From Paramacrobiotus metropolitanus (Eukaryota; Tardigrada; Eutardigrada; Parachela; Macrobiotidae): a stretch of 64,000 nt of DNA. The position numbers and the translations under genes were made by a program. Below are positions 2,819 through 12,670 of the stretch, one piece after another. The notes beneath the pieces are model-generated. The model had not been told where the DNA came from. It searched no databases and saw only the letters and a list, made by a program, of their open reading frames with translations. Where the stretch lies: assembly GCF_019649055.1 (NCBI RefSeq), contig NW_026570375.1:1-64000 (forward strand), read 5' to 3'. Positions within the stretch are counted from its first letter, which is position 1; each line of letters opens with the position of its first letter.

Positions 2819-4553
2819 TTTGTTAACGAAAAGGAAAAGATACACGAAATCAAAAAGCCGAAATGGAAAAATCTACGACGAATCCAAGCTGAACCAGCGC
2901 ACTCGACAGCAGAAAGCAGACTATCAGCTGGTTGCAAGCGAAGGGATTCCGTTTTATAGGCAAATTTCTCGGTTGCGTCTGTGCACGCGATTTTAATCGC
3001 GCGATGCCTGGGAGTGGAGGCTTGATTCACGTAGTACGTGCACCTACCCTGCGCAGTTGACAGGTGTGCGCAAGCGGATATAAAAACGTATTAAATACCG
3101 ATGTACGTGCAAGTACGTCACCCATTTGTACGTACTAGTAGCCTTTGCCTTTTTAATTCTCGCGATGGCACTCGTACAGCGTGTTCAACACAGCGGCATA
3201 AAATTATTTTTTATCTAACGATAAATTTAATAATAAACAGTACAGAACGGTACCAACAGTCTACAGATAATAATAATAATTAGGTACATTATAATAATAA
3301 TTATGGTAGTATATGGCAATTTAAAGTACAATACATCGATACGTTTGCGCCTGATTTTAAACGTACAGATACTACTGGCGACTCCTGATACTTAATATTA
3401 TTTTCTGCAATTCCGCATGACTGTAGATGATAATAATGGCATCCAGGGAAGCATGTTCAAAAGAGAAAAATCGCATGCATAAGCGCAAGAGAAAAGGATG
3501 GAACCGGTTTTGATTCTTTGAAGAGCCCTTGAATGGCTCACTCTGTTTTTTTTATTTTTCCATTGTGCTGTAGTCATTGCGATGAAGTCATGCTTCATGG
3601 AACTGAATGTGCAAAGGAAATGTAGCGATAAAGTTACCGGCAAATCTTAAATAAACAGAAGCGAATATCTTGTTGTACATGTAATGCGTTTCGCTTAGGC
3701 ATTCCGCATTTGCAAATGGCAGTGTCGTCATTAGTGCATTAGCGCTGCAACTTGTATGTGTACAAATTACGCATGCATACATATAACTAACGTTAGAACC
3801 GCCTGAAAACTGGCTTGTATGTATGGGTCGGAACGTGTTTGAACGCGCTGGTGTGCGGCATGGCAAGCTACTTCGCATATACACATACAAGTAACCGATC
3901 CGACTGCCAGTCGATGTTGAAAATTTATCGAATTTAAATTTTAATTGTCACGTTTTTTAGTGTCATTTGAAGCACTAGGTTCTTGATGTTTACACCTGAT
4001 TGTAGATCAGATCAATTCTGTAGCTTCTGATAAAGTTTAGTTTGTGGTATAGTTCTGCACCTTTTATTTCTAAAGTGTGTCAGTCAGGTGCAATCTGAAC
4101 TGTGTGATCAGCGAAGAACCGAGCTTTGGTCGGCGGATTCAAAATGGTGTTTATTCCACGCAGCGTGTCGCGTTTGTCCGTACGCTCTGATACGGCCAAC
4201 GTTTCGGGAGACACAACGGGTAAGTTTATTCAAAAAATATTTCTGTGTTTCGAAGACTGGATTCCGAAATGACTAGTGTCCGAAATGACTGGTTTCCGAA
4301 ATGAATGATTTCGGTTATCGTACAATGCTTTGCACATACTTGCTTTTCACTTTTGCACTTGCTTTTGCGTTGTACTGTGTTGATTTTGTAAAGTTTGATT
4401 TTATAGATATCGAGACTCTCATGCAGGAGTGGAATACGTCCGACAACAAAGCAGAGGCTTTTAAAAAAGTGGAATCAGGTAAGACTTGGTTTAACCTGTG
4501 CCTGTATCGCGCTTACGTATATGATAAAAACGTATGGCTCAGCTTTCAAGCGG
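2819..4553. other. Intergenic region between GST 1 and the Harbinger element
   Basis: No gene could be supported. The sequence has many GTAC and CGTACG words, for example around 3090-3140, and three nearly identical 12-mers (tccgaaatgact-type) at about 4262-4305. The left end of the Harbinger element probably lies somewhere here, but I could not find a convincing terminal inverted repeat. Confidence 0.4.
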
Positions 4554-5193
4554 ATGGCTGCAGCGAGCGCCGATGTTATTCCGGCTGGAGCAGAAAGCGA
4601 AGAGGAAGAGACGCCGAGTGAGCGCGCAAAGCCTGGCACTCCGGCTGAGCCAGGATATCCGGCTGTGCAACGAGGTACATAATTATTAGAAGTTACTGAC
4701 TTTTTGGCGTAGTTCTTCCTATTGTAGAAACCCAATACGTGTGCTTCAACTGTCGAAAGCCAGACCCGGGGCACACTACCAGTCAGTGCCGCCGTTGGAA
4801 CAGTCGCCGATTTCAGCCACGTGACGGGGAACGAGCAAAAAAATTCAAGGAATCTTTGGAGGTAATACTTAATTTCAGCACACAATTCAGCCAGGATATC
4901 CGGCGATACTGCAGAGGCAAAGTTGAAAATTAAAACAATTTATAATTATTTATTGATTGCTGCTGTTTCAGGAAAAAGAACGCTCTGTGCGCCGCATGGA
5001 AGAGGATCGCAGAGCGGAAGATGCAGAAATACGTGCCCTACGCGACAACGAAACTCGCGCTGAGCGAAACGCCCGTGAAGAGCGCTATCGACGCGAGGAC
5101 CGCGAGCGGGCGGAACGTCGCCGTCGCGAAGATCGCCAGTGGGAGGATGTCTGGGCCGAAAAATTGCGTGCCCACCGAAACATTCGTTTCTAG
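4554..5193 (+). CDS. Zinc-knuckle and charged coiled-coil protein of the Harbinger element
   Basis: Three exons, 4554-4674, 4728-4861 and 4972-5193, join in phase to give 158 residues. The N-terminus is acidic (residues about 15-25, ESEEEE). Next come two PGxPA repeats encoded by two copies of the element's 16-bp motif. A CCHC-like knuckle follows (CFNCRKPDPGHTTSQC, spaced C-x2-C-x6-H-x4-C). The last 70 residues are almost entirely Arg/Glu and should form a long helix or coiled coil. I chose the ATG at 4554 because it is the first in this frame that keeps the acidic exon. The knuckle suggests nucleic-acid binding (inference). It lies about 440 bp upstream of the transposase on the same strand. 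I do not recognise a named family. Confidence 0.7.
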
Positions 5194-5631
5194 GTAATTA
5201 TTTTAAATAATCAATCTGCTCTACCGAACGTTAGCGAGCCGGATAACCTGGCTATTCACCTGATTACAGGTTTGCAAATGCAAAAGCCATGGAATGATTG
5301 GATTGTTTTATTTTTTTCTCACTGGAATCTGTGGTGTTTTGTTAACGCGGTTTTGTGTTTACCTCCTCGCATATTTACATGAAAGTTTAGTAACTGGCAG
5401 TGATTCTTTTATTGAGTGTTGTTTGATGAAAAGCTCAACGATAAGCCGACAGTAAGTTCCAAGTAACCAACGTGACTCTGGAAATGATTAAATTCTGAAA
5501 CTGATCAAGTTTACGTAACTGCAGATCGCCGGCGGTACAAAATCGTACACAAAAAGTCAAATTTATTCCCAGCAAACAGTTTAATATAGGGTTTTAAGTT
5601 ATTTTGTGAACCTTATCTAAGTTTTGCCAAA
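5194..5631. other. Spacer inside the Harbinger element
   Basis: A non-coding gap between the zinc-knuckle gene and the transposase. It contains one inverted-orientation copy of the 16-bp motif at 5238-5253 and presumably the transposase promoter. I recognised no TATA box. Confidence 0.4.
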
Positions 5632-6863
5632 ATGGCGCGCAAGAATGACACTTCTTTGCGATTTAAATTGAAACAAAGGCGCCGAGCTCTGATTACTAAG
5701 GGACGACAAAAATACAGCCGGAAAACCTGGCTCCTACTGCTTTATGCCGCAGCAGCGTTTATCGTGGATCGTCAAGAAAAAGAACTGGAGAAGTTTTATG
5801 TGAGACACGAGCTGGATTTGCGATCCATGGAAAACGACAAGTTCAAGCATTTTTTTCGACTAGAGTGCTACAATGATTTTGAAAGGCTGTACCGTGCACT
5901 TATGATACCGAGTGTCATCCACTGCAGCAACAACTCGAAGGTGAGCGGACGCTTCGGCCTAGCTGTCGTCTTAAGAAGACTTGCTTATCCAAATCGATGG
6001 GGAGATTGCATGGAGCTGCTCGGTCGTGAAAAAAGCCAGTTATCAAGAATTTACAACGCGACAATTAACATCATTTACAGTAAGCACGGCCACCTTTTAA
6101 ACTCGTTGACCCAACCCTGGTTGTCGAAAGAACGCATAGCGGTCTACGCTGCCGCTGTGAAAAGAGCAAGCGAAGGAATTTACGGTAACGTTTAAGCCTG
6201 GTTAGCCGGCTGATCATGGGTGACCATGAAGATAACATTTTGAAAACATTTTTATAAATTGCAGGCAACTGCTGGGGTTTTATTGACGGCACCGCGCGTC
6301 CTATCTGTCGACCAGGATTTTTGCAACGATTGTACTATTCCGGTCACTGCCGCGGTCACGTCATGAAATATCAAAGTATTGTTGCTCCGGATGGACTCAT
6401 TATAAACATGTGGGGACCGTGTGAAGGTAGCCGACATGACGGATATATGGCTCGTGAATCCAGAATACGTGAGCGATTGCAAGTGAAAAATTTTGAATGG
6501 GGAAAGCCGTACTGCTTATTCGGCGATAAAGGGTATTGCCTTTCTGAGGAAATACAAGTGCCTTATAAAGGTCCGCGAATCACACCAGCGGAAGAACGAT
6601 TTAATCTGGTAATGTCCAGATGCCGAATAGCAGTGGAATTGGGGTTCCAAAGGATTTGTTCATTGTTTGCGTTCAGTAATTACCGAGAAAACAACAAATT
6701 ATTCTGGCAGCAGACTGGGAAAACCTATCTTGTTTCTGCTATACTTGCCAATTGTTTGACTTGCTTGTACGGGTTTCAGTTAATTTATCAAAAATATTTC
6801 GTACTTCCACCATCACTGGAGGATTACCTTCGCACAAAGGAACACCGAAGAAAGCCTGGATAA
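5632..6863 (+). CDS. PIF/Harbinger DDE transposase
   Basis: Two exons, 5632-6184 and 6265-6863, with an 80-bp GT-AG intron, give 383 residues. The N-terminal half is basic and helical. The DDE nuclease domain lies mainly in exon 2. The first Asp is in the family hallmark FIDGTARP, directly after the splice junction. The second is in FGDKGY, and the Glu is in RCRIAVELGFQRI. The spacing and motifs fit the DDE_4/HARBI1 superfamily (established knowledge). The enzyme would cut and join transposon ends, normally with a SANT/Myb partner such as the convergent gene at 6940-8929. One 16-bp motif lies in the intron (6196). Another overlaps the stop codon (6854), so the protein ends in KPG. An AATAAA at about 6922 is a likely poly(A) signal. 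Confidence 0.9.
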
Positions 6864-6939
6864 CCGGCTGAAGCCTGGATAGCCGGCGGTGATTTTAACG
6901 TTTTATTGTCAAGTATTTTTCTGAATAAAAATAAAATGT

Positions 6940-8929
6940 TTACTCAGCTATTTTAACATTTTCAGACGCCTGAGATTTTTTTGTAGTTTTAGATTTTTTA
7001 AGAAAATCGCCCATGAATCCAATTAACGTTTTGACTTCATCCGATCGTTTTTCTTGCTCTTTTTCGCGATGTTCCATTTCAATTTTAAACCGCTCAAGCT
7101 CCAATTTTCGAACGGCTTCTCTTTCGGCTCTGTCTCGTTCCTCTTTTTCGATTTGCTGTTGTCGAATTAATTCTCTTTCCGCACGGTCTTCTTTGTCCTT
7201 TTGAATCCGCTCCGCTCGATCAGCATCGGCTTTTTCTTTTTCCGCAGCACGATCTAAGGCCCGCTCTTCCCGCTCCATAGCGCTAGTAATGCGTTCTCCG
7301 TCAGACATCTTTTCCACTGCCGATTGCAGCCCACCAGCCAAAGCAGCTATTTGCTGTCTGCTACCGCGAATGTGGGTTGCTTTTCTTCGCGCTGCTTCAG
7401 CAACTTCTTTAATGCCTTTGAAAGGTGACTTTTTCGGTGTCTGAACACCAGCCGGCTTTCCGGCTTTTCTTGCAGTAGCCATAGCGCCTTTCATAAAGCT
7501 TTCATTCGCGACTGAGATTTCTTCGCTGGAACTTTTCAAAAGGCTTTTTTCGTCGCAGCCGGATAGCCTGGCTTTTTTATCCAGCGTGGAAAATGATTCA
7601 AATTGACCGTCCTCACCAACTGTCAATAACTCGTCCTCTGCAAAGCAGTAACGAGTCTTATAAGTACAGCAAAAAAAACACCCGTTGACTCGAGCAGGGT
7701 AAATAATTCAAAAAATTTGCATTTTTTCAGTATTACGTACTGTCAAATCGCATGTCATCGCAGCGTTCGGCTAAATCGCCATTCTCAAAATCTGCATCGT
7801 AGCTGTCTGTATGGCCACCTAATCCGTTGTCCATTAAGTCGCCAAACTTTTCCACGGACATTCCACTTGTCATTGCAAGCTTAGTTGCCCTTGCACGTAT
7901 GGCAATGGCAGCATCTTTTTTTGCCTTTTCAGGTTTGCGAATAGCCAGAGGTGCCGATTCTTTATAATTAGAAATTTGCTCCATGACCTGGTCAAACGTA
8001 AATTAGCAAATTATATACACGTCAAGCAAACTACGCACAGAAGTTCAAATGTGAAAGCGCAACAAAAATTCTGAAAAATATAAATACAAACTTAATTAAC
8101 AAAAAAGGGAGAACGCTGCTTAGTTAACGATAAGTAAATATAATTTTACGACATTAACGTAAATGAGCCTGGATAGCCGGCTGCATAAGGCAAGCACATC
8201 TACGTGTTTAAACTAAAACAAATGCAGAATGAAACAGCTAAAACATTCAGGATTTACCTGCATATATTCGTCAAAGACTTCGATGTCTCTTTCCGTTCCC
8301 GTAGGGCGATCTTCGTTATCGATGGATTTATACGTCTTCAAATGTCGTTGCACCACAGCTTTGATGGCATTTATGTCGGTCTCTCTAACGTTGATTTTAT
8401 CATCTCCGTTGGCTAATTTTACAGCTGAAACCCACGCTTCTCTTCGCTCCACTGATTTTTCTGGATAGTCAGATGGATTCTTTTCCAGCACCGCTTTCAG
8501 CTTATTCAAGGTTTTTTCGTCTGCAGGAATTCGCTTGCGTTTGTACCTGGTTTGCGTTCCGAGAGCCTCTTCTCCATCGCCCGATTCTTCAATTTCAGCC
8601 GGATCTCCAGGCTCAGCCGGTTTTCCAGGCTTTTGTGGATTGTCGTAATCACCTTCCGTTTCAACTTCAACATCTCCCGGAAGTCCAGTGGAATAAGATG
8701 GAACTGGAGCTTGTACTGCACCTGGCTCTGATTCCTTTTCCGACTGTGTGCCAGCAGTGGATGGCTGGTAGGATTTCATGTAGGATTTACGATAGGCCTC
8801 TGCTAAAGATGTACTTTGTCCGTTCGCCGGTGCGTTTTGATTGCGCTTAATCGCAAACACTTGCCCGGGTTTATTAGGGTCGGTAAAAAATATATGCGTA
8901 TCCGCTGAGATTGGTTCTTTTGCAGACAT
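6940..8929 (-). CDS. Harbinger partner protein, SANT/Myb-like with C-terminal coiled coil
   Basis: Three exons on the minus strand, 8929-8258, 7987-7741 and 7637-6940, give 538 residues. Residues 1-130 are hydrophilic and Pro/Glu-rich and include PGKPA and PGDPA, encoded by two copies of the 16-bp motif (8598, 8616). Residues about 135-224 form a compact helical, Trp-containing region that could be the SANT-like DNA-binding domain; I infer this from position and context and cannot see the repeat clearly. The last 110 residues are a Glu/Arg/Lys coiled coil ending in a short hydrophobic helix. In known Harbingers the partner protein brings the transposase to the ends and into the nucleus. The start at 8929 is the first ATG; an in-frame GTG lies two codons earlier. 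Confidence 0.72.
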
Positions 8930-9577
8930 TTTCACTAAATGAAATTATTGGAAGTAAATTGTTGATTTTTTAATTCAATCAAATAACAAAGAACTATAAA
9001 GTTTTCAGAAATGGGCAGCTCGGTAATTTTCGGACATTTTGCCCATGGATTTACTACACGGACAAGTGCTTACTGCTTCGTAGCTGCACGATATGTATGC
9101 CAGGTCCAAAAATGCGCAAGAGGTGGAGTTATCATCCATACACGTAAGGCCCTTATGTGTATGGATTTTTGGTTCCGCCCTCATCCAAACATACATCTAA
9201 TTTGCGCGGCAGCGAATCGCCGCGTTGTGGGTTCGGTCATGACGTAACTTGTATAGATGGATTCTTACTTGTCGGCCATACAAGTAACCAACGCACATGG
9301 TCTATTTATATATGTACCGATGTATCGAAGGATGACAACAAAAATAACTAACAGCCTAATTTAAAACATTTAAATCAATTTTAATCACATTTAATCACAT
9401 TTAAAACATAATTAATGCTGACGATGTGCAATTGTGGTAAAATATCGTTAGGAAAATCTAACTTTAACTTTCTAATAACGTACGCAATACGCTAACTTCA
9501 TTATCTCATTGCACGTGTGCATCAACGGTGAGATGTCACTACCGGCATCGTGATCAGGTAATGTAATTCATTTTACA
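8930..9577. other. Gap right of the Harbinger genes
   Basis: No coding sequence could be supported. The right end of the Harbinger element should fall here. The sequence is AT-rich with scattered short CATAC/GTATG words, and I found no clear partner to the left flank. Confidence 0.35.
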
Positions 9578-9579
9578 TA

Positions 9580-10006
9580 CCGTAAAACCCGATATTAACG
9601 CCCCCCCGAAATTAACGCCCCGTGCGGTTTTAAACGCCCCCTCCCGTAGGTCACGAAATAATAAAAGCCCCCCCGAAATTATCGCCCCGGGGCGCCTATT
9701 AAGATGCGGCGCCGCGCTTTTTTAGCCTGTTGTCGGTACAGTCTGAATGGTACATTTTGCTAAGTTCATTAATTCCACTTATGCACACCCTTTAAACCAT
9801 GATTTTCTAACGGATATCATTTTTACTGAAGTATTCCTGTAATGTACATACATATTAATCTTGTTAAAGATGAAATAACATGAGCGCGTTATTCATTTGA
9901 AACATTAGACGCCCCCCCGTAATAAACGCCCCCTGCGGTTTTAAGCGCCCCCTCCCGAAGCTCTCGAAAAAATAAAGGCCCAGGGCGTTAATATCGGGTT
10001 TTACGG
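9580..10006. mobile_element. MITE with 25-bp terminal inverted repeats and TA target duplication
   Basis: The ends are inverted copies of ccgtaaaacccgatattaac, followed by gcccc. They are flanked by TA on both sides (9578-9579 and 10007-10008). At 427 bp with no ORF it is non-autonomous. Inside, two direct repeats of about 70 bp (about 9598-9670 and 9908-9980) carry runs of C broken by gaaatta or taata words and the shared block tgcggtttta. It sits just past the 3' end of GST gene 2. The TA duplication suggests a Tc1/mariner-like or similar mobiliser; the family is not certain. Confidence 0.82.
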
Positions 10007-10072: not shown

Positions 10073-11667
10073 TTATTTATCATTCCATTTGGCAAAATCG
10101 GCGTTGAGCACCCGATTGAATCGCTTGGAATTGCGGAATTCTTTGATGCCTTTTAAATTCTGAAATTTAATTACACGTGTTAAATAAACCATAACCATAA
10201 AACTCCATAAGTAAGCAAAAAACTAGACAACGGTACAGTTATTTATAATACTAATTATTATATTATTTTACTCGTACATAATATTATGACTACTTACGCC
10301 TATGCGCTCATGAAACTTCTTCACATTGGGATAGTCATCCAGAATGTTGGGAAACAATTCATTATTGCCGTCCAGACGCTAAGGATAAACAATAATATGG
10401 AAATTTCAGTTTTCATAAAATATTGGAAAATAATTGACTGCACCTCGTATAAACCGAAATCGGTGTAAGTCAGATAATTCCCCACACAGTAATCGCGATT
10501 CTGTAGATGTTTATCGAGTTGTTGGAGAACTGGCATGAGCTTGCCACTGCGGTAAGTCTGAAGTTCTTTGTCCTGGAATAATTTATAAAACAACAAAAAA
10601 GCACAGAATAGAAAATAAAAAATACGAATTTTCATGTGGCTGACATACAAAATCCGGTGTAAAATAACACAGCCAACTCCACTGCACCATCAGATCCCAC
10701 ACTATACCGTCTATAGTGTCCTGTTCCAGAGCGTCTTCATCGTTTTTGGCAACTACAAAAGATTCGATTAGTGACGAAGAAATTTTTATCTTCTTCCACT
10801 ATCAGAATAGCGCGTACGAAGAAATTTTCTCTGATGAATATTTTTCTCAAGCTTATTAACATACATAGCTAAGTCAGATAATTTATACTGCAGTTACTTA
10901 CGTAGCTTATAGTTAAAAATTTAATAAACTAGCTCACAAAAGATTTATCAAGAATGTTAATCCCACTTTCTCCAAAAAGTCGGCGGCACCAGAAATAAAT
11001 TGCGTTATTTCAACTTTATAATTTAACAAGCGCCATAATTTTGTACATACTGAGCCCATGCTTGCGCGCAAGGTAACGAACGATGGCGTTTGACTGGGTG
11101 ATTTTCAAGTCTCCGTCGATGAAGTAAGGCAGCTGTTTAAAAAATAAAACCCGTACATTACCTACAAACTTGTACAATTATTTATTAAGTTCCAAATACT
11201 GTAGTACTCTAAAGAGGTTGTTCTTAAAATTAATTACTCACGTTGGGAAACTCCAAGCCGAGATTCTGCTTATCATTCTGTCGCCACTCTGCAAAAGAAA
11301 TAATTTTTACTGCTTCAAGTAACTGTAAGTAATTTACGTACAGGTGCTTGCGATGCGCAATACGATGCAAGGACGTTATAAAAACCGCAACAAATAATTA
11401 CCATTCTGGTCATTCAAGTTGTAGCTCTTGAATTCGTATTCCTGTCCGACGTATTCCAGAAGGTAGCGAATCGGCATAACAAACTACAACACTCAAATGT
11501 GCTGCATTTCAACCAAAAACTGCACCGTAGAAATATCAACAAAACAGCCAGGAAACTACTCTGGAATAAATAAAAATCTGATATGTTGTTTAAACTTTAT
11601 TATACACATTACACATTTTTCAACTTACCCCGCGAATCTCCCAGTATCCCACCACAGGCTTGGACAT
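10073..11667 (-). CDS. Glutathione S-transferase, mu class (copy 2)
   Basis: Eight exons on the minus strand: 11667-11629, 11483-11402, 11288-11242, 11132-11051, 10752-10649, 10572-10444, 10378-10298 and 10159-10073. The product is 216 residues. Six of the eight exons have exactly the lengths of copy 1 (82, 82, 104, 129, 81 and 87 nt); exons 1 and 3 are one codon longer. Motifs: GYWEIRG with the catalytic-type Tyr, [38 protein letters not shown], and the C-terminal NLKGIKEF block. No stops or frameshifts were seen, so the gene should be functional. It faces the same way as copy 1, with the Harbinger element lying between them. Confidence 0.93.
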
Positions 11668-12670
11668 TTTCGCGGTAAAGGCAACCTGAAACTTATGTAA
11701 AAATGAGGCTTTAATGAAAATCAATCAAGATTATTGACGCGAAAAGTATTTCTACACACGCGAAGAAACGTTTCTATATCCAGCTGGTTGTCGGCTGACG
11801 ATAACCGGTTTCACCGATAGAGGCTTTTCTAACAGCTGTGCAAGATGACTCTGCACTTTGCAGTATGCTGTTGCCAGTGTGCACAGCATGTGTAAACCGA
11901 CCACCTCTTCACTTCCGGTTGTACTACAACAAAGCATGCGTTGTGGTACACTGGTACTTGAACTTTATAGCGTGCAAAAATACTCATTACTCTCAACTTG
12001 ACGAAATAATATCCATATTAACTATTACTGATGAGATTTAAAATCATGCAGCAGAAAAAGCGACAGCAAGCACGTAATAATTATAACACCGTAATACTGC
12101 ATGAAAATGCCGCAGTTTAGTTTATTATAGTTCTGCAAAGTTAATTCTACAATAGTATACTCGTATCAATATTGGCAGTCCTACTTGTATTTTTATCACA
12201 GCGTTCCTTTCTGTAACGAACGAACCTAAAATTGACCGTACGAGATAATTACCTATTTTGCTGCAAAATTTATACTGTACAAATTTGTAGCAGCCAGAAT
12301 GTGCCCCAAAGACATACAAAACACATAACATCAAAACAACGGCAACGGGAACACTTCACAATGGTGTATTTTTTGCAGTGCGAGGTCAAAGTGTATTGGC
12401 GCAAGCGGGTTCAGGGCAGTTGGGAGCCGTATCATGTCTATTTTATTAGGAGTCTAATTGTATCATTGTATGTAATAAGCTTATAAGGCTGCAGTAATAA
12501 TTTAAGCTGCAAAACATTACAGGTATTTGGGTTTGTAAATGTTTATGCTTGCACAATTATTTGCAACCCGTAAAATTGATACATAAATAATATTCATCAA
12601 AAGAAAGTAACTACCGAGACTATACTAAAGTGTCCCGATTTCGCTGGCTGGATACGAAAACGGTGCTATA
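11668..12670. other. Intergenic, between GST 2 and the lipocalin-like gene
   Basis: This contains the divergent promoter space for GST 2 (minus) and the lipocalin-like gene (plus). A short plus-strand ORF at about 12361-12486 has no recognisable features. Nothing else could be supported. Confidence 0.4.

Follow-up and report, generated by a model that had tools for sequence, protein, structure and literature searches.

Dispersed base-paired mini-hairpins in a clade of PIF/Harbinger-type transposons from a tardigrade: a possible family-specific label kept by selection

It is by their ends that DNA transposons are believed to be recognised. What, then, is to be made of one that repeats a single short motif throughout its interior, in exons, introns and spacers alike? 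The question is raised by the first 64,000 nucleotides (forward strand) of contig NW_026570375.1 from Paramacrobiotus metropolitanus (NCBI RefSeq assembly GCF_019649055.1; hereafter the window), where positions 3733-9303 hold a PIF/Harbinger-type transposon that we call element A. Its transposase gene lies between two accessory genes, gene 1 ahead of it on the same strand and gene 3 beyond it on the opposite strand. A preliminary description made from the sequence alone had noticed the motif and proposed that it was selected as DNA, for example as binding sites for one of the element's own proteins. Our analysis points instead to a base-paired hairpin, carried in different versions by several related transposon families.

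The motif, GCCWGGNNNNCCGGC, is matched exactly at 12 places, in both orientations and all within 4631-8630, the rest of the window having none; dinucleotide shuffles lead one to expect 0.01 for the window as a whole. The preliminary description was therefore right about where the motif is and where it is not, and needs correction on its count and length, its 'about eleven' copies of 16 bp being 12 copies of 15 bp. Allowing up to two mismatches raises the matches in the window to 26 against about 9 expected, the 14 additional ones all lying outside the element and resembling background. The sites also fall where first described (in spacers, in the transposase intron, over its stop codon and within accessory exons): seven overlap coding sequence (4631, 4649, 5717, 6854, 7558, 8598 and 8616) and the other five (4890, 5238, 6196, 6873 and 8167) lie outside it, a division that depends on exon limits partly set by eye. 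Those at 4631, 4649, 8598 and 8616, in accessory-gene exons, encode PGxPA peptides, and the exon sites at 5717 and 7558 are read in other frames. What the first reading overlooked was the motif's symmetry, for it folds on itself as a bulged hairpin, GCC-W-GG-N4-CC-GGC, with one base unpaired, together with two unbulged hairpins at 6215 and 7451. When the bulged layout is searched with any base and any arms allowed, element A yields the same 12 sites, always with A or T as the bulge and GCC as arms. Exact-motif and hairpin scans found nothing in the outermost 898 bp at one end of the element and 673 bp at the other. The sites are listed below, the bulged ones from exact matches (with open reading frames, ORFs, for that over the stop codon) and the unbulged ones, which carry no strand, from the hairpin scan.

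4631-4645, forward strand: bulged hairpin in a gene 1 exon, in tandem with 4649
4649-4663, forward strand: bulged hairpin in a gene 1 exon
4890-4904, forward strand: bulged hairpin in a gene 1 intron
5238-5252, reverse strand: bulged hairpin in a spacer, 45 nt past the gene 1 stop
5717-5731, reverse strand: bulged hairpin in transposase exon 1, 85 nt past the ATG
6196-6210, forward strand: bulged hairpin in the transposase intron
6215-6228: unbulged hairpin CATGG-N4-CCATG, 19 nt beyond 6196; shared with copy C16
6854-6868, forward strand: bulged hairpin spanning the transposase stop codon, in tandem with 6873
6873-6887, forward strand: bulged hairpin directly past the transposase stop
7451-7464: unbulged hairpin GCCGG-N4-CCGGC in gene 3 exon 3; also in copy C16
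7558-7572, reverse strand: bulged hairpin in gene 3 exon 3
8167-8181, forward strand: bulged hairpin in a gene 3 intron
8598-8612, reverse strand: bulged hairpin in gene 3 exon 1, in tandem with 8616
8616-8630, reverse strand: bulged hairpin in gene 3 exon 1

Other copies of family A in the 170-Mb genome reveal how tightly these bases are held. One of them, C83, is 99% identical to element A, and two more, C16 and C322, stand at 68-69% nucleotide identity; there are also two fragments without a transposase match, C87 (L013) and C91 (L014), and miniature inverted-repeat transposable elements (MITEs) that share the ends of A. Exact motifs number 12 in C83, 13 in C16 and 10 in C322, which has two further ones with a single mismatch. 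Between the window and C16, which is 69% identical, every one of the 12 sites retains its ten fixed bases (120/120), with 52/60 kept at loop and W positions and 166/290 (57%) in the flanks, so that the motif bases are indeed better conserved than their neighbours; elsewhere, only 274 of 5242 windows with that shape are retained in full. In the opposite direction 12 of the 13 C16 sites are kept in the window, and C322 retains 10 of the window's 12 sites and 118/120 fixed bases. Over seven exon stretches, fourfold-degenerate bases are kept at 9/9 positions under the motif against 141/323 outside it, which together with the conservation in C16 lends good support to the earlier proposal that selection acts on nucleotides rather than on protein. 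That the hairpins are maintained by selection seems to us almost certain.

The genome-wide count that the preliminary description had called for came out divided. Single motifs are not special to element A, since there are 226 exact ones in the genome against 117 for a reversed-pattern control, whereas tandem pairs (two motifs in the same orientation, 1-8 nt apart) occur at 12 places, each within a copy or fragment of element A (C16, C83, C87, C155 and C322), with none for the control. Tandem pairs of the type found in a second family, B, occur at 6 places, all within copies of that family, and this exclusivity holds for the two patterns searched, A type and B type.

It is family B (C84, C41, C67 and C2) that bears most directly on pairing. 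Its transposase is about 67-69% identical to that of the window where the match is whole, it is the sister of A on the transposase tree (support for A+B 94/96), and each copy contains one exact bulged A motif. Perfect hairpins of the form NNNGG-N4-CCN'N'N' number 17 in C84, 17 in C41, 16 in C67 and 14 in C2 (shuffle means 0.16-0.20, maximum 3), and stems of 5 bp with the GG core number 15-19 per 8-kb locus at a loop length of 4, compared with 0-4 at lengths 0-3 and 5-8. The arms vary from site to site (GCT, GCA, GTC, GTA, ACT, TCT, CCT, ATG and others) and still match one another within each. If all 30 GG-N4-CC sites of C41 are taken, with pairing not required, complementary bases stand at the three outer positions in 24, 23 and 21 of them, respectively; arms are fully complementary at 17/30 sites in C41, 17/35 in C84, 14/34 in C2 and 16/33 in C67. 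When the 3' arms are shuffled, C41 averages 2.2 such sites and never exceeds 8, the means over the four copies being 1.5-2.2, and the observed count was reached by none of 5000 shuffles in any copy, with or without the commonest arm. As C84 and C2 are 99.6% identical, these represent three separate copies at most. Between C41 and C67, 156/170 bases are kept in hairpins and 173/344 in flanks. Across 23 aligned hairpin columns, which contain 25 mismatched cells, four arm pairs (229, 405, 744 and 1515) appear in two Watson-Crick states; at 405 and 1515 both of the copies compared have an undamaged hairpin, and at 229 and 744 one of them has a damaged one.

The trend extends to two further families, with C represented by one whole copy and a diverged one (C309), and D by a single copy. 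In C36 (family C), 9 of 19 GG-N4-CC sites have paired 2-bp arms, giving GCGG or GAGG, a count that none of 2000 shuffles equals (mean 2.7, at most 7). In C40 (L008; family D), the loop is 5 nt and 14 of 20 GG-N5-CC sites have paired 2-bp arms (CT, CA, CG or TT), where shuffles average 4.7, peak at 12 and never reach 14 in 2000 trials; six of the D hairpin pairs are spaced 15-16 nt apart. On the transposase tree A, B, C and D, together with C121, form one clade with support 98/98, in a data set of 19 rows of which two were joined from pieces and some have long branches. Nine loci outside this clade (L012 and L017-L024) showed no conspicuous excess of G/C-rich 4-bp stems, the sole repeated arm among them being CGGC, which L021 carries four times with a loop of 3.

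Among A-D the hairpins also correspond by gene position, though their letters differ. Positions for B-D are those of the GG in transposase-sense orientation, and landmarks and distances were taken by eye to within about 90 nt. Near the transposase start lie 5717 in A, 2937/2961 in B (L005), 3078/3098 in C (L007) and 3011/3027 in D (L008); the intron contains 6196/6215 in A and 3516/3533 in B, with 3627 in C and 3533 in D falling in exon 1 ahead of it; and near the stop are 6854/6873, 4154/4173, 4304 and 4285/4301, respectively. Catalytic exon 2 contains no hairpin in either A or B, save for the A site over the stop, and D has one inside it (4102). Throughout, the hairpins often stand in tandem pairs 15-25 nt apart, with stems of roughly 4-6 bp in which GG/CC closes a loop of 4 or 5 nt. 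No probability is assigned to this match in layout, because the families descend from a common ancestor and the choice of landmarks came afterwards.

What, then, is being selected? Arms that match within a site are to be expected from base pairing and not from independent half-sites of duplex DNA, and we conclude that the selected form is very probably a base-paired hairpin. The strand that carries it must then be RNA or single-stranded DNA. Transcripts are favoured because the sites occupy the gene-bearing interior and MITEs exist without hairpins: at least 13 short non-autonomous loci carry both family A ends (from 40 of 110 candidates scored), and the two MITEs examined (L015 and L016) contain neither an exact motif nor a GG-core 5-bp stem enclosing a loop of 4. 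As neither the A ends nor these two MITEs carry any, the hairpins are seemingly dispensable in cis for movement, and a cis requirement in transposition is disfavoured. Judged from sequence, we lean towards RNA over single-stranded DNA as the form in which the hairpins would act, and give slightly better than even odds to their being read by a protein that the element itself encodes. On such a scheme they would act within the pre-mRNA and mRNA of the element, serving as handles by which a protein particular to its family recognises them, and the element's RNAs would thereby be distinguished from those of the host, whether for processing, export, control of translation or escape from silencing. 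Taken as a whole, the proposition that one PIF/Harbinger-type clade keeps family versions of a mini-hairpin by selection on base pairing, and that these act in transcripts for a family-specific reader, has in our estimation a little less than an even chance of being correct. A fuller version, in which tandem mini-hairpins across the exons and introns of all genes would constitute an RNA recognition code of a DNA transposon, read by an element protein that marks its own transcripts, is a bolder conjecture that we hold to be rather doubtful; under it, bulge, arms and loop length may diverge between families as reader and hairpins coevolve.

Several observations weigh against the main reading. 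The bulge lies on the 5' side in gene sense at 9 of the 12 A sites; at the remaining three, 5238, 5717 and 8167, it sits on the 3' side and is conserved in that place. Folding energies are only mildly below those of shuffles (z -0.49 to -2.82 in 14 windows), and of ten A windows six are predicted to fold into the expected bulged hairpin, two fold with G.U and no bulge, and two tandem pairs merge into one longer hairpin. An excess of G.T wobbles in gene sense, as proof of RNA, was not found among three B copies (C2 being omitted as near-identical to C84), in which mismatched pairs comprise 4 G.T, 8 A.C and 13 others; on the plus strand the same mismatches read as 8 G.T and 4 A.C. From C41 to C67 only 10 of 17 sites keep every base, and by the same token arms are conserved in letters besides pairing. 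Copy C309 offers a weak set (7/25 at loop 4, reached by 6/2000 shuffles), and C121, a decayed member of the clade, no clear set (3/12, reached by 133 of 2000). The broken copy C322 differs at 3 sites, its transposase match consisting of three overlapping pieces, and the C87 and C91 fragments keep 2/3 and 0/2 sites; such losses in damaged copies fit decay without selection, on small numbers. A CCHC-like knuckle in gene 1 (4727-4800) is matched in C16 and C322, and because it is present in A copies with no match found in the family B loci, or in the gene 1 ORF of L005, it is not a general hairpin reader.

Other explanations must be set beside this one. An element protein such as the gene 3 product could bind the sites as duplex DNA and be recruited along the element to keep it active. 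The literature offers precedents, in that the VANC motifs of Arabidopsis VANDAL elements are 9 bases long, dense, family-specific, mainly non-coding, in one orientation and coevolving with their protein (PMC5735166), and a Myb-like protein of zebrafish Harbinger binds a subterminal 9-bp motif (PMC9710019). The family specificity of our motif, the confinement of tandem pairs to their own family, the use of both orientations and the neutral outcome of the wobble test would all suit such sites. We nevertheless consider them unlikely, as the B arms vary between sites while matching within each, the bulged W of family A shifts the inner half-palindrome out of register with the outer one by half a base pair and so breaks the symmetry of a dimer, the outer parts of element A are devoid of sites, and 7 of 12 overlap coding sequence where VANC motifs mainly avoid it. 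The covariation of B arms, with the same trend in C and D, disfavours a symmetric dimer site in particular, and the plain duplex binding first proposed is not the best reading of the motif.

Single-stranded DNA exposed during transcription, replication or transposition would explain the covariation in B, C and D equally well, and the occurrence of the A motif in both orientations. We know, however, of no long single-stranded stage in cut-and-paste transposition, stems of 4-6 bp are short for extrusion out of duplex DNA, and the two MITEs with the same ends lack hairpins; we think this improbable. Still more so is a past invasion by mobile mini-palindromes akin to mitochondrial double-hairpin elements, which the tandem arrangement and a length difference of 18 nt, gained or lost, among B copies within gene 1 might recall. 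The tandem patterns searched, at 12 A and 6 B places, lie exclusively in these elements, which tells against mobility, and places correspond between families, with hairpins remaining where flanks diverge. Hardly credible, finally, is a by-product of coding repeats combined with mutational repair that perfects quasi-palindromes. PGxPA is encoded at four A sites and B gene 1 codes for AGxPAG repeats; the same hairpins nonetheless occur in introns, spacers and other frames, and neither 52 kb of the window nor the nine distant loci show an excess. With fourfold-degenerate bases also kept, PGxPA coding is rejected as the cause.

Element A itself is laid out as follows, with splice sites set by eye.

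3733-9303, forward strand: whole element A, DDE_Tnp_4, PIF/Harbinger-type, 5571 bp (edges from the 99% identical C83, with the ends of C83, C16, C322 and two MITEs read by eye)
4144-5193, forward strand: gene 1, several exons (approximate, start also by eye; ORFs 4407-4682, 4700-4933 and 4957-5193), a CCHC-like knuckle followed by an Arg/Glu-rich part
5632-6863, forward strand: transposase, exon 1 5632-6184, intron 6185-6264, exon 2 6265-6863 (ORFs and Pfam)
6955-8929, reverse strand: gene 3, about three exons near 8929-8260, 7987-7748 and 7638-6955 (ORFs and conservation in C16 and C322)

The transposase matches DDE_Tnp_4 (PF13359) with an E value of 6.9e-22 and 78.2 bits against a cut-off of 24.8; relatives of it were sought in viral contigs and none was confirmed. 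Pfam scans gave no match above cut-off for gene 1, or for gene 3 with the Myb/SANT/MADF second-gene domain included. By eye alone gene 3 is Myb/SANT-like, followed by a charged, coiled-coil-like part, and its exon 1 alone, in a single-sequence AlphaFold prediction, has a mean predicted local distance difference test (pLDDT) score of 48.6. A 3-bp duplication, ATT, flanks the element at 3730-3732 and 9304-9306, and at all eight loci with ends read by eye the duplication has the form A(A/C/T)T (ATT in the window, C16 and C322; ACT in C83, L016 and C2; AAT in L015 and C84). The PIF/Harbinger target consensus is TWA, and these duplications are not strictly of that kind. Multi-exon genes on the minus strand flank the element at 300-2830 and 10090-11670, glutathione S-transferase-like by eye only, and C-rich repeats lie just outside it at 9590-9990, where a 29-nt unit occurs twice, 67 nt apart, with similar stretches beyond by eye.

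How do these hairpins compare with known systems? With PIF/Harbinger elements the families share a DDE_Tnp_4 transposase, further genes, 3-bp target duplications and MITEs with common ends; they differ in the covarying hairpins dispersed through their genes, in the A(A/C/T)T duplications and in the lack of hairpins near the A ends, so that the location of Harbinger's subterminal Myb-binding sites is not that of the element A hairpins. They resemble VANC motifs in being many, short, partly intronic and specific to one transposon family, changing between families, and depart from them in occupying exons and both orientations and in the covariation of their arms. Closest in form are the packaging signals of single-stranded RNA viruses such as MS2, dispersed stem-loops with a shared recognition feature, the hairpin of MS2 carrying an A bulged on its 5' side and a motif in its loop (PMC6281560); the transposon hairpins likewise are dispersed potential stem-loops with a common core and variable stems. 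The viral signals belong to an RNA genome and a coat protein, whereas here we have a DNA transposon with a DDE transposase and 3-bp duplications, and no coat-protein Pfam match above cut-off was present among the 7 A and 4 B stretches scanned. Mitochondrial double-hairpin elements likewise comprise short tandem hairpins, unlike which the present ones are confined to one transposon clade, correspond in position between copies and, for the pairs searched, occur nowhere else in the genome. Internal regions of rice mPing/mPong affect transposition without shared sequence (PMC9921582). Among the best-ranked matches from one open library, no description of dispersed covarying hairpins in a DNA transposon was found, which leaves their absence from print unestablished. 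Each known kind of dispersed motif considered here differs from the hairpins in at least one tested feature; should they prove to be duplex binding sites, they would join the VANC motifs as a further form of that kind.

Our findings suggest that a hairpin label is kept by selection in these transposon families. If so, a cut-and-paste element would also label its own RNA (or single-stranded DNA), much as some RNA viruses do, and related families within one genome would keep their labels separate.

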